From NCBI RefSeq assembly GCF_022846615.1, contig NZ_AP025637.1, forward strand, positions 62,001 to 126,000: 64,000 nt of DNA. The letters run 5' to 3'. The DNA comes from Roseomonas fluvialis. Lineage in GTDB: Bacteria; Pseudomonadota; Alphaproteobacteria; Acetobacterales; Acetobacteraceae. The position numbers were made by a program, and so were the translations under genes. Below, piece after piece: positions 29,082 through 33,381 of the stretch; the first letter of the stretch is position 1, and every line of letters starts with the position of its first letter. The notes below the pieces were generated by a model. It did no database searches and was not told the DNA's origin. It saw only the letters and a list, made by a program, of their open reading frames with translations.

Positions 29082-29648
29082 ATGAACTCCCCACATCACG
29101 ATCCCCTCGGGTGGCACGGCACCACCATTCTGTGCGTGCGCAAGGCGGGCCGCGTGGCCATGGCCGGCGACGGCCAGGTCTCGCTCGGCCAAACGGTGGT
29201 CAAGGGCAATGCGCGCAAGGTGCGCCGCATCGCCCAGGGCCGCGTGCTGGCCGGCTTCGCCGGTGCAACCGCCGATGCCTTCACCCTTCTCGAGCGGCTG
29301 GAGGCGAAGCTGGAACGCTTCCCCGACCAGCTGGAACGCGCCTGCGTCGACCTGGCCAAGGACTGGCGCACCGACCGCTATCTGCGGCGGCTGGAGGCGT
29401 TGCTGGCCGTGGCCGATGCGAAGCGGTCGCTGCTGGTGACCGGCCAGGGCGACGTGCTGGACCCCGAGGACGGGGTCATCGGCATCGGCTCCGGCGGCAA
29501 CTACGCGCTGGCGGCGGCACGCGCGCTGCTGCCGCTGGACGGCATCGACGCGGAGGAAATCTGCCGGCGTTCGATGAAGATCGCCGCCGACATCTGCGTC
29601 TACACCAACGGCAACTTCGTGCTGGAAAGCCTGGAAGCCCAGGCGTGA
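29082..29648 (+). CDS. hslV: ATP-dependent protease subunit HslV
   Basis: HslV (188 residues) is the proteasome-like peptidase of the HslUV complex in the cytoplasm. The catalytic threonine is expected at Thr14 in [11 protein letters not shown] after removal of a 13-residue propeptide. Family motifs are [40 protein letters not shown] and the C-terminal [17 protein letters not shown]. The start chosen is MNSPHH; the upstream in-frame residues are not family-like. It is divergent from the chemoreceptor gene and followed, after a repeat element, by hslU. Confidence 0.97.
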
Positions 29649-29672
29649 CCCCCACCCACCCTAACTGCCCTG

Positions 29673-29802
29673 CGGATCGCGCGCCTGCGCGATCCGGGAG
29701 CGCACCGAGCGACCGCGCCCCAACCAACATTCATCCCAGGCGCACCAGCGCCCGGCGCGAAGGCAAGCCGCACGGACGTGCGGCGCCCGCCGTCTGAGGG
29801 TC
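29673..29802 (+). repeat. Two-hairpin intergenic element, copy A (hslU leader)
   Basis: A 130-nt element that also occurs upstream of trpA (32016-32144, minus strand). Hairpin 1 is C-GGATCGCGC-gcct-GCGCGATCC-G at 29673-29696. Conserved GGGAGCGCA and CGACCGCGCCC follow, then a 33-nt variable middle and GGCGCGAAGGCAAG. Hairpin 2 is CCGCAC-GGAC-GTGCGG (29768-29783), and the 3' part is GGCGCCCGCCGTCTGAGGGTC. The closing GAGGG lies 9 nt before the hslU ATG and can serve as its Shine-Dalgarno. Both stems differ from copy B by compensated changes, which suggests selection for structure. Confidence 0.75.
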
Positions 29803-29809
29803 CAGAACA

Positions 29810-31135
29810 ATGTCCGAATCCATCAACCTCTCTCCCCGCGAGATCGTCTCCGAACTCGACCGCCACATCGTCGGCCAGCAGGACGCCAAGCGCGCCGTGG
29901 CCATCGCGCTGCGCAACCGCTGGCGCCGCCAGCAACTGCCCGAGGGCATCCGCGAGGAGGTGGTGCCCAAGAACATCCTGATGATCGGCCCGACCGGCGT
30001 CGGCAAGACCGAGATCGCGCGCCGCCTGGCGAAGCTCGCCAACGCGCCTTTCCTGAAAGTCGAGGCCACCAAGTTCACCGAGGTCGGCTATGTCGGCCGC
30101 GACGTGGAATCGATCGTGCGCGACCTGGTCGAATCCGCCATCACCATGGCGCGCGAACAGGCGCGCCGCACCGTCCAGGCCAAGGCGGAGCTCGCGGCCG
30201 AGGAACGCCTGCTGACCGCGCTGGTGGGTGAAGGCGCGTCCGGCGAAACCCGCATGAAATTTCGCCGCCTGCTGCGCGAAGGCACGATGGAATCGCGCGA
30301 GGTCGAGGTGCAGGTGGCCGATGCCGGTGGCGGCATGCCGCTCGGCATGATCGACCTGCCGGGTGCGCAGGGCGCGCAGATGCAAAACATGCAGGAAATG
30401 CTCGGCAAGATGTTCGGCGGCCGCCAGAAGCCGCGCAAGATGACAGTGGCAGAAGCACGCATCGCGCTGACCAAGGAAGAAGCCGACAAGCTGCTCGACC
30501 AGGACGCCCTGGTGCGCGACGCGGTTCTGAACGCCGAGAACAACGGCATCGTGTTTCTGGATGAGATCGACAAGGTCTGCGCCCGCACCGGCGAGGGCGG
30601 CATGCGCGGCGGCGATGTGAGCCGCGAGGGCGTGCAGCGCGACCTGCTGCCGCTGATCGAGGGCACCACCGTCACCACCAAGCACGGCCCGGTGAAGACC
30701 GACCACATCTTGTTCATTGCCTCCGGCGCCTTCCATTTGGCGAAGCCGTCCGACCTGCTGCCGGAACTGCAGGGGCGCCTGCCGATCCGCGTGGAACTTG
30801 CCGCCCTGACGCGCGACGATTTCCGCCGCATCCTGACCGAGCCGGAGCATTCGCTGCTGAAGCAGTACACCGCGCTGCTCGGCACGGAGGGCGTCACGCT
30901 GGACTTCGCCGCGGATGCGGTGGACGCGCTGGCGGACCTGGCCGCCGAGATCAACGCCAGCGTGGAGAACATCGGCGCGCGGCGCCTGGCCACGGTGCTG
31001 GAACGGCTGCTGGAGGAAGTGTCCTTCACCGCCTCGGACCGCGGCGGGGAGGTGGTGCGGGTGGATGCCGAGATGGTGACGGGCCGCGTGGCGCCGCTGG
31101 CCGGCAGCGCGGATCTCTCGCGGTTCATCCTGTAG
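29810..31135 (+). CDS. hslU: ATP-dependent protease ATPase subunit HslU
   Basis: HslU (441 residues) is the AAA+ unfoldase that feeds substrates to HslV. The Walker A motif is GPTGVGKT (60-67), followed by the pore segment [18 protein letters not shown]. The long I domain spans about 110-230 and includes the [20 protein letters not shown] stretch. Walker B is [13 protein letters not shown], and the C-terminal domain has [20 protein letters not shown]. The length is normal and the start is the ATG at 29810. The 161-nt gap from hslV is filled mainly by the two-hairpin repeat element, so its translation may be controlled separately from hslV. Confidence 0.97.
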
Positions 31136-31175: not shown

Positions 31176-32009
31176 CTACGCCGCCTTGCGCACCCCGCGC
31201 ACCGCCTCGGCCAGCGCGCGCACCTGGTCGAGCACCTTGCGCACCGCATCCGGCTTCGCGCGGCCGTGTTCGTCCAGATTCGCCGCCAGCGTCTCGATCA
31301 GCGCGGAGGCCACCACCGCGCCATCGGCGATGGTCGCCGCCTCGGCCGCCTGTTCGGGCGTGCGCACGCCGAAGCCGATCGCGATTGGCAGGTTGGTATG
31401 CGCGCGTATGCGCGGGATGGCGGCGGCGAGTGCCTCGGCGGTGGCGCTGCGCGTGCCAGTGATGCCCGTGATGGCCACGTAGTAGACGAAGCCGGTGGTG
31501 GCCGAAAGCACGCGCGGCAGGCGTTCGTCGCCCGTGGTGGGCGCCACCAGCCGGATCAGGTCGAGGCCGTTCGCCTTCGCCGCGGGTTCGATCTCGTCGG
31601 CTTCCTCGGGCGGCACATCAACCACGATCAGGCCATCCACGCCGGATGCCGCGGCATCGCTGCAGAAGCGCTCCACGCCATAGGACAGGATGGGGTTGTA
31701 GTAGCCCATCAGGATGACCGGCGTGGCGTCGTCCTCGTGCCGGAAGTCGCGAACCATCGCGAGCGTGCCCGCCAGCGTGGCGCCGGCCCTCAGCCCGCGC
31801 TGCCCGGCGCGCTGGATGGTCGGGCCATCGGCCATCGGGTCGGTGAAGGGCACGCCGATCTCGATGAGGTCGGCGCCCGCGCCGGGGAAGCCGCGCAGGA
31901 TCGCCATGGAGGTGGCGGGGTCGGGGTCATACGCCTCGAGGAAGGGAATGAGCGCGCCGCGCCCCTGGGCCTTCAGCGCGGCGAAGCGCGCGGAAATACG
32001 AGAAGACAT
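31176..32009 (-). CDS. trpA: Tryptophan synthase alpha subunit TrpA
   Basis: TrpA (277 residues) cleaves indole-glycerol phosphate and channels indole to TrpB. The TIM-barrel motifs are LIPFLEAYDPDP, DLIEIGVPFTDPMADGPTIQ with the catalytic Glu, VILMGYYNPILSYG, and FVYYVAITGITGTRSA with the phosphate-binding region IAIGFGVRTPEQA. Here LEAYDPDP replaces the common TAGDP. Start MSSRISARF at 32009. Upstream lies copy B of the two-hairpin element, whose GAGGG is placed as the Shine-Dalgarno. The stop is convergent with hslU. Confidence 0.97.
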   Translation of the reverse strand: MSSRISARFAALKAQGRGALIPFLEAYDPDPATSMAILRGFPGAGADLIEIGVPFTDPMADGPTIQRAGQRGLRAGATLAGTLAMVRDFRHEDDATPVILMGYYNPILSYGVERFCSDAAASGVDGLIVVDVPPEEADEIEPAAKANGLDLIRLVAPTTGDERLPRVLSATTGFVYYVAITGITGTRSATAEALAAAIPRIRAHTNLPIAIGFGVRTPEQAAEAATIADGAVVASALIETLAANLDEHGRAKPDAVRKVLDQVRALAEAVRGVRKAA

Positions 32010-32015
32010 GTGCTT

Positions 32016-32144
32016 GACCCTCAGACGGCGGGCGCCGGCCGTCCGGCCGGCTTGCCTTCGCGCCACGCAATGTTGCGCTGGCGGCGACGGGCGGGTTGGG
32101 CGCGGTCGCGCTTTGCGCTCCCGGCGCGCGCCCGCGCGCGCGCC
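32016..32144 (-). repeat. Two-hairpin intergenic element, copy B (trpA leader)
   Basis: This 129-nt copy lies between trpB and trpA, reading toward trpA. Hairpin 1, read on the minus strand, is GGCGCGCGC-gcgg-GCGCGCGCC (32123-32144). Hairpin 2 is CCGGCC-GGAC-GGCCGG (32035-32050). The unpaired blocks GGGAGCGCA, CGACCGCGCCC, GGCGCGAAGGCAAG and GGCGCCCGCCGTCTGAGGGTC match copy A, and the variable middle is again 33 nt. Stem bases differ from copy A in pairs, and the GGAC loop is kept. The GAGGG end sits about 8 nt before the trpA ATG. Confidence 0.75.
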
Positions 32145-32163
32145 GTTTCGGTGGAGGTGCCGT

Positions 32164-33381
32164 TCACATCGACACGCCCAGATGCTTCGCCACCGTGAAG
32201 ATGTCCTTGTCGCCGCGGCCGCACATGTTCATCACGATCAGCGTCTCGGGCGGCAGCGTCGGCGCGAGCTGCATCACATGTGCCAGCGCATGCGCGGGTT
32301 CCAGCGCGGGGATGATGCCCTCGAGCCGCGAGCACAGCTGGAAGGCGTCCAGCGCCTCGGTATCCGTCGCGCTCACGTACTGCACGCGGCCGAGTTCGTG
32401 CAGCCAGGAATGCTCAGGCCCGATGCCCGGGTAATCAAGGCCCGCGCTGATCGAATGCGCCTCGAGGATCTGCCCGTACTCGTCCTGCAGCAGGTAGGTG
32501 CGGTTGCCGTGCAGCACGCCAGGCCGGCCCTTGGACAGCGACGCCGCATGCTGGTCGGTGTCGATGCCGTGGCCCGCCGCCTCGACCCCACGCATCGCCA
32601 CCGAGGCATCGTCCAGGAACGGATAGAACAGCCCCATGGCGTTCGACCCGCCCCCGATCGCCGCGACCAGGATATCGGGCAGGCGGCCTTCGGCGGCCAT
32701 CATCTGCTCGCGAGTTTCCTCGCCGATCACCGACTGGAAGTCGCGCACCATCATCGGATAGGGGTGCGGCCCCGCCACGGTGCCGATGCAGTAGTAGGTG
32801 TCGTGGACATTCGCGACCCAGTCGCGCAGGCCCTCGTTCATGGCATCCTTCAACGTGGCCGCGCCGGAGGTCACGGGCACGACTTCCGCGCCGAGCAGCT
32901 TCATGCGGAACACGTTGGGCTGCTGGCGCTCGACGTCGGTCGCACCCATGAAGACCGTGCAGGGCAGGTCCATCAGGGCGCAGGCGGTGGCTGTGGCCAC
33001 GCCATGCTGGCCGGCCCCGGTCTCGGCGATGATGCGGGTCTTGCCCATCTTCTTGGCGAGCAGGATCTGGCCGAGCACCGCGTTGATCTTGTGCGCGCCG
33101 GTGTGGTTCAGCTCGTCGCGCTTGAAATACACCTTGGCGCCGCCGAGGTGCTTCGTGAGGCGCTCCGCGTACCACAGCGGCGATGGACGGCCGACGTAGT
33201 GCGTCAGCAGCCGGCGCCATTCCGCCATGAAGGACGGGTCGCGCTTCGCTTCGTCATAGGCGCGCTCCACCTCGAGTATGAGGGGCATCAGCGTCTCGGC
33301 CACGAAGCGGCCGCCGAACTGGCCGAAGCGGCCGCGGGCATCGGGGCCCTGGCGGAAGGTGTTGGGCAGGGGCTTGTTCAA
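32164..33381 (-). CDS. trpB: Tryptophan synthase beta subunit TrpB
   Basis: TrpB (405 residues) joins indole and serine to tryptophan using PLP. The N-terminus [18 protein letters not shown] is typical of TrpB1. The PLP lysine is Lys98 in [13 protein letters not shown]. Catalytic-region motifs include [18 protein letters not shown] and the phosphate-binding [13 protein letters not shown], and [19 protein letters not shown] lies in the COMM domain region. It is followed after 154 nt by trpA. Upstream in the usual trpF-trpB order are two unrelated genes (DUF1330 and a lipoprotein hydrolase). Confidence 0.98.

Follow-up and report, generated by a model that had tools for sequence, protein, structure and literature searches.

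ERIC repeats are about 127 bp long, lie in transcribed intergenic regions of enterobacteria and can fold as one long imperfect palindrome; to our knowledge, no transposase is known for them. REP units are short, each a palindrome with a GTAG tetranucleotide. Rhizobial genomes are described as having dozens of intergenic repeats that are conserved in sequence and in secondary structure and whose function is unknown (PMC2573895), and the suhB RNA motif (RF00519) is described as multi-copy in alphaproteobacteria and not bound to any one neighbour gene (PMC1273637).

The element described here lies in a window of 64,000 nucleotides, the whole stretch of DNA analyzed, from Roseomonas fluvialis. Judged by likeness, its nearest kinds appear to be the ERIC, REP and RIME repeats. 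With ERIC it shares a similar length, an intergenic location and foldability, and no transposase partner was found; going by description alone, it differs in its three hairpins and additional long-range helix, in the fixed GAGGG at its end and in its alphaproteobacterial hosts. It resembles REP and BIME sequences as a numerous, dispersed hairpin repeat between cistrons and at gene 3' ends, but the unit is about 128 nt long with several helices, its consensus lacks the GTAG tetranucleotide, and a Y1 transposase gene (Y1_Tnp, RAYT) is absent from the 16 element-bearing genomes of the genus (the host and 15 congeners). By eye, CGGATCG at one end of the consensus and TGAGGG at the other do not form the terminal inverted repeats that a MITE would have. 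Among 35 genus genomes, Y1_Tnp occurs in one (G027), where the element was not found, while a reverse transcriptase (RVT_1) is absent from the host genome and present in nine, three of them element-bearing (G011, G013, G028). A RAYT or reverse-transcriptase partner as mover was rejected because the host has neither gene, and the missing host RVT_1 likewise speaks against a derivative of a group II intron or another retroelement.

In its many intergenic copies, conserved in both sequence and fold, the element recalls RIME and other rhizobial repeats (PMC2573895). A multi-copy, alphaproteobacterial element not bound to one gene likewise recalls the suhB motif RF00519 (PMC1273637), from which it differs in that no Rfam match lies over the elements in the loci scanned. 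Rfam 15 gave 0 matches at gathering thresholds in the window, and in two further scans, of 7 and 11 loci, no element was matched at E ≤ 1; the literature search was too limited to claim absence from print.

Fold of the element at hslU and trpA

The initial annotation had described a two-hairpin element common to the hslU and trpA leaders. A covariance model (R1) built from 21 copies matches both leaders and confirms the common layout, with hairpin 1, two conserved blocks, a further hairpin (hairpin 3) whose loop reads GGAC, and the GAGGG end. On the contig, the hslU copy lies at G000:C1:91673-91800, which places the model boundary exactly at the window coordinates given below. Features are listed by window position, strand and content.

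29673..29800, plus strand: whole element, hslV-hslU junction copy; R1 124.0 bits, E 6.2e-18
32018..32145, minus strand: whole element, trpB-trpA junction copy; R1 116.9 bits
29673..29696, plus strand: hairpin 1, 10 possible pairs, loop GCCT; read from the sequence
29700..29710, plus strand: hairpin 2, GCGC/GAGC with a single mismatch in the hslU copy; weakest helix
29714..29719, plus strand: 5' arm of the long-range helix P3, CGCGCC; covariation in multi-genus copies
29754..29759, plus strand: 3' arm of P3, GGCGCG; covariation in multi-genus copies
29762..29764, plus strand: 5' arm of P2, GGC; partner 29789-29791
29789..29791, plus strand: 3' arm of P2, GCC; covariation in multi-genus copies
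29767..29784, plus strand: hairpin 3, 7 bp, GGAC loop
29796..29800, plus strand: GAGGG 3' end, Shine-Dalgarno-like by position; ends 9 nt before the hslU ATG (29810)
29082..29648, plus strand: hslV, upstream cistron; home-made gene call (start unverified) and Pfam Proteasome
29810..31135, plus strand: hslU, downstream cistron; Pfam AAA_2
31176..32009, minus strand: trpA; Pfam Trp_syntA, ATG 8 nt past GAGGG
32164..33381, minus strand: trpB, upstream cistron; home-made gene call (start unverified) and Pfam PALP

Both copies terminate in TGAGGG, 9 nt (hslU) and 8 nt (trpA) before the ATG, in agreement with the proposed Shine-Dalgarno (SD) position. With the element, the intercistronic spacer measures 161 nt at hslU and 154 nt at trpA. 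The Pfam assignments bear out that the two genes are functionally unrelated, and further unrelated junctions carry the element; hslU orthologues are present in 25/25 congeners searched.

The paired stem differences first noted between these two copies are correct, and copies covary genome-wide. Among R1-fitted copies of the host (n=114), 94.9% of stem cells are paired compared with 81.5% in shuffled controls, and 254 cells changed on both sides compared with a shuffled mean of 82. The corresponding values are 97.9% paired and 315 versus 108 double-changed cells for relatives' copies (n=117, R1-fitted), 98.8% and 57 versus 16.6 for other genera of the family, and 96.7% and 150 versus 47 for 47 copies of several genera under a corrected structure; model-fitted alignments lean to the model structure, and the shuffles do not keep relatedness. 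A MAFFT alignment of 29 host copies, which is not model-fitted, again recovered hairpins 1 and 3. The correction concerns the first RNAalifold consensus, in which hairpin 2 was mispaired and which was replaced on the evidence of other genera. As R1 retains the mispaired hairpin 2, and a later model (R3) has an automatic structure without P3 and P2, their scores are partly sequence-based, and the E-values of R1, R2 and R3 are rough.

In the 47 multi-genus copies, hairpin 1 has 97.8% of its cells paired with double changes in 6/8 pairs, and hairpin 3 has 98.4% paired with double changes in 5/7 pairs. The hairpin 3 loop is GGAT or GGAC in 66/114 host copies and 107/117 relatives' copies. The fold goes beyond the earlier picture in a weaker hairpin 2 and the long-range helix CGCGCC/GGCGCG. 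Hairpin 2 is the least paired helix (88.2%); other copies have GCGC-N3-GCGC or GGCCGC-GAAN-GCGGCC at this place, and the mean stem in host copies is 3.80 versus 2.95 shuffled, with the 21/114 copies that lack an anchor left out. P3 is 99.3% paired and, apart from three double changes, almost invariant. All three stem from other genera, CGCGCA pairing with TGCGCR in L288, L299 and L304; in the alignments A3 and A4, P3 hardly varies. P2 is 98.6% paired as GGC/GCC or GCC/GGC, with a CG in place of a GC middle pair in 12/47 copies.

According to these alignments, a copy folds into hairpin 1, which differs in sequence from one bacterial family to another, then hairpin 2, P3 and a 3' module that is conserved and consists of AAGSCAAG, hairpin 3 with its GGAY loop, GCCCGSCGTYTGAGGG and an A-rich end.

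Copy number, arrays and placement relative to genes

The host genome (5.48 Mb, Acetobacteraceae) holds about 130 copies. A blastn search with window positions 29640-29830 gave 61 matches at E ≤ 10 and R1 gave 139 at E ≤ 1. After one partial match and the weakest were left out, 137 were carried on to the position counts, and exclusion of the seven below 41 bits leaves the 130 copies used here. They group into 103 arrays, of which 82 have one copy, 16 two, 4 three and 1 four, so that 21/103 hold 2-4 copies, which stand head to tail, mostly 8-13 nt apart; such arrays were not part of the earlier picture. Two head-to-head pairs were also observed, 76 and 77 bp apart (L107:6207-6529 and L136:2501-2827), each with one copy directly past a stop and the other directly before the next start. 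Among copies of at least 55 bits, mean identity is 72% for those more than 1 kb from each other (most alike pair 92%) and 87% for array neighbors (maximum 100%). Since dispersed copies never exceed 92% identity and array neighbors reach 100%, tandem duplication appears recent and dispersal does not. No replication-strand bias was evident in a coarse count.

The GAGGG end points toward a gene stop in 77/103 arrays, at a median of 13 nt, and toward a gene start in 26/103. The idea of a mainly leader element is thus not upheld, and the expected spacing to start codons holds for the minority: GAGGG lies 7-10 nt from the start codon in 15/26 start-facing arrays. Relative to the element's orientation, the flanking genes (5' gene, 3' gene) are (-,-) at 47 junctions, convergent (+,-) at 30, (+,+) at 25 and divergent (-,+) at 1, which means that at co-directional junctions the element is forward 25 times and reversed 47 times. 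The 344 element-free junctions of the same regions comprise 223 co-directional, 48 convergent and 73 divergent ones; with 1/103 arrays at divergent junctions versus 73/344, the element avoids promoter-only junctions. Relatives' regions give a similar picture, with (-,-) 27, (+,-) 22, (+,+) 11 and (-,+) 2 among 62 arrays, 49/62 stop-facing, and GAGGG 7-10 nt from the start in 7/13 start-facing arrays.

These positions are what would be expected of a 3'-end element that, read in reverse, begins just past stops and serves as a terminator, an RNase barrier or an mRNA stabilizer. We regard this explanation as rather doubtful. A terminator-like hairpin with a T-run lies directly before the element in only 14/75 stop-facing arrays and 1/24 start-facing ones, in a count that took in single-strand clusters and skipped mixed-strand clusters, and the upstream base composition shows no clear T-run after hairpin 1 in reverse reading. 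The low count, 14/75, also led us to reject the element as a follower of terminators in reverse reading.

Start-facing junctions include hslV|hslU, trpB|trpA, dnaK|dnaJ, dapA|smpB, pseudouridine synthase|rsmD, and single genes before dctM and ccmE. A further junction separates an ABC ATPase from a permease, for which the best NCBIfam models are the zinc proteins AztA and AztB, both below their cut-offs. In the host, 16 single copies lie 5-13 nt from a start, and 14 of these SD-position copies have an exact GAGGG compared with 72 of the 114 other copies; the home-made gene caller gives a bonus for GAGGG, so position counts can favor SD-placed starts. The starts of hslU, trpA and dnaJ agree with those of homologues. 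In the predicted RNA, the last five nucleotides have a mean unpaired value of 0.35 in SD-position copies versus 0.30 in 40 others, and SD sequestration as a switch was rejected on this similar accessibility. As a separate observation, genes behind SD-position copies, such as that before the hslU start at 29810, often start with ATGTC (6/16 in the host and 2/7 in relatives, versus 26/422 background genes).

Occupied and empty junctions and distribution

We surveyed junctions in the host and its 15 element-bearing congeners, 16 clade genomes in all. The hslU junction is occupied in 13/16 and empty in G001, G003 and G004. At trpA the element is present in 8/16, one copy being degenerate (G020), and the junction is empty in G001, G003, G011, G013, G015, G016, G021 and G032. 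The dnaJ junction is occupied in 13/16, with no copy scored in G016, G021 or G028; two of these, G016 and G028, nevertheless have a GAGGG 8 nt before the dnaJ ATG, which is read as a probable element remnant. Where the hslU or trpA junction is empty, the stop codon of the first cistron overlaps the start of the second; in the occupied junctions inspected, a spacer and the element precede an ATG start. By eye, no clear target-site duplication was seen between empty and occupied hslU or trpA junctions. In a FastTree phylogeny based on three proteins, sister genomes differ in whether a junction is occupied or empty (at trpA, G028/G016 and G020/G021; at hslU, G015/G003), a pattern that does not separate gains, precise losses and allelic replacement. 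Three side observations concern single loci: three tandem copies between trpB and trpA in G018, a close relative, where both distal copies have an altered 3' end (L312:1092-1489); a G153 trpA frame reported with one in-frame TGA, which may be an assembly error or a broken gene (L329); and about 45 nt with self-complementary parts inserted in the hairpin 3 loop at the dnaJ site of G001 (L348:1320-1492).

The survey bears on the idea that hslU, trpA and genes like them have a cis-regulatory leader of their own, be it a riboswitch, a thermometer or a protein-binding leader. Such a role would fit the conserved structure, the SD spacing in 15/26 start-facing arrays and the dnaJ copy retained in 13/16 clade genomes. 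We nonetheless consider it very improbable, as most arrays are not leaders, the genes are unrelated, the predicted SD accessibility is the same in leader and other copies, and the trpA junction is without the element in 8/16 clade genomes. The hslU leader is one of about 130 host copies of a family with a patchy distribution across the Alphaproteobacteria, and the fixed end of this family takes the ribosome-binding-site position before some genes; it thus looks like a reused, spreading repeat and not like a dedicated hslU switch.

Copies fixed at one site also retain pairing. The hslU-site copies alone (15 copies, 13 genomes) are 97.8% paired with 24 double-changed cells versus 8.5 shuffled, and the dnaJ-site copies (n=13) are 96.0% paired with 24 versus 7.0. 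At hslU the paired changes are confined to hairpin 3 (4/7 pairs) and P2, hairpin 1 shows no double change among the 15 copies, and 2/5 covariation measures are not clearly above shuffles; of 500 shuffles, 59 were as high for pairs with a double change and 95 for the number of pair types. Mean identity is 75% for same-site copies of different species and 72% for unrelated copies. Same-site sequences have thus diverged nearly to the level of paralogues with their pairing preserved, which selection on structure explains; template-switch repair of quasi-palindromes could account for part of the same-site pairing.

Selection on RNA or cruciform structure had been proposed at the outset. The structure, with its covariation, stands; the choice between the two forms was addressed with a strand test, in which selection on one strand as RNA predicts more G.U than A.C cells. 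Stem G.T and A.C cells are nearly equal, 54 v 40 in host copies and 21 v 17 in relatives, so the test favors neither RNA nor DNA. This lack of an RNA-strand signal would suit a selfish or neutral DNA repeat, in which template switching in quasi-palindromes or selection of single-stranded DNA hairpins during movement generates the pairing and the leader role is incidental; the frequency of both orientations and array neighbors as much as 100% identical point the same way. Such a repeat would, however, hardly be expected to have the long-range P3 and a P2 switch outside the hairpin proper, loop and single-strand blocks kept across bacterial families, and pairing retained at the fixed hslU and dnaJ sites, and we judge this explanation possible but unlikely.

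The covariance-model search foreseen in the initial annotation extended the family well beyond the host, with the element in 15/34 congeners and, as weaker matches, in other genera of the family. Element-bearing congeners have genomes of at least 4.2 Mb, and congeners without it 2.6-4.2 Mb. A first sample of other genera gave weak matches in 2/24 genomes (best E 6e-4 and 7e-4), and a search of the order gave 41 matching genomes out of 394 at E ≤ 1e-5, namely the host, the 15 congeners and 25 from 7 other genera of the family. At most 58 candidates were scored per genome in the search of the congeners and the first sample of other genera, 8 in the order search and in the class-wide search with a model R2, and 12 with R3, so copy numbers from these searches are lower bounds. 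Sixty element regions of relatives were taken from the best-scoring matches; 37 of them have one or more genes in common with a host element region, a result in better accord with old retention than with active mobility. Two sites among 20 regions from other genera, L288/L300 and L289/L303, are flanked on both sides by the same genes as the host regions L078 and L094. One element, in G076, faces the 3' end of a 6S RNA gene (Rfam RF00013) from about 50 nt downstream (L286:1792-2104); a near-identical copy with similar flanks occurs in G178 (L287), the Rfam scan that gave the 6S match having covered L286 of the two.

Outside the family, R2 found 17 genomes at E ≤ 1e-4 among 387 alphaproteobacterial genomes. 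Copies from 11 of these loci are 94-116 nt long and keep the element order: a 5' hairpin that differs in sequence and is imperfect in L365, then hairpin 2, a third, compact hairpin, AAGCCAAG and the GGAY hairpin, with a 3' end close to GCCCGGCGTTTGAGGG. R3, made from 18 outside-family copies and none from Acetobacteraceae, matches 35/387 genomes at E ≤ 1e-3, the host and 34 others. Named carriers of outside-family copies are Azospirillum, Niveispirillum and Tistrella replicons. In the host, 12/12 scored candidates match R3 (best E 6e-7), and both matches listed are known copies. GAGGG again lies 9 nt before an ATG in L405 and L406, among 27 class-wide loci that include one misplaced cut (L401) and two incomplete loci (L393 and L396). 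Against the first 450 kb of Sinorhizobium meliloti pSymB (9 stretches), used as a negative control, R3 gave nothing significant (best E 0.91), and no RIME copy was identified there. Searches for phage or plasmid carriage of the hslU copy and for phage carriage of outside-family copies gave no match.

Proposed origin and use of the repeat

Taken together, we think it reasonably probable that the element is one copy of a non-coding family of structured intergenic repeats akin to REP and ERIC, some copies of which have been recruited as ribosome-binding-site modules. In this family, the roughly 130 copies would have settled at gene ends in the host lineage, singly or as head-to-tail arrays. Where a forward copy came to lie in an operon junction, its fixed GAGGG and A-rich end may have come to serve the following cistron as ribosome-binding site. 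At hslU and trpA, a folded spacer with its own SD would take the place of overlapping stop and start codons and could uncouple translation of the two cistrons. Elsewhere, copies would occupy 3' regions in either orientation, as REP or ERIC repeats do. The initial proposal of a mobile or recruited module is supported as far as many copies and occupied and empty junctions go, from which spread by insertion is deduced; with no dispersed pair above 92% identity, recent movement is not visible.

A bolder version can be put forward only tentatively, as it seems to us less probable than otherwise: an alphaproteobacteria-wide, patchy mobile RNA module acting as a portable intercistronic ribosome-binding-site cassette. 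Its body and GAGGG would be selected as RNA, and it would uncouple neighboring cistrons (hslV/hslU, trpB/trpA, dnaK/dnaJ, dapA/smpB), repeatedly rewiring operon stoichiometry.

The preferred reading, a repeat family with partial recruitment, is relevant to annotation, where a copy met on its own can pass for a leader RNA specific to one gene, as at hslU. If it is true, a folded repeat family without an Rfam 15 match runs patchily across the Alphaproteobacteria, and the occupied and empty junctions of sister species would amount to a natural replicated experiment on translational coupling and operon stoichiometry.
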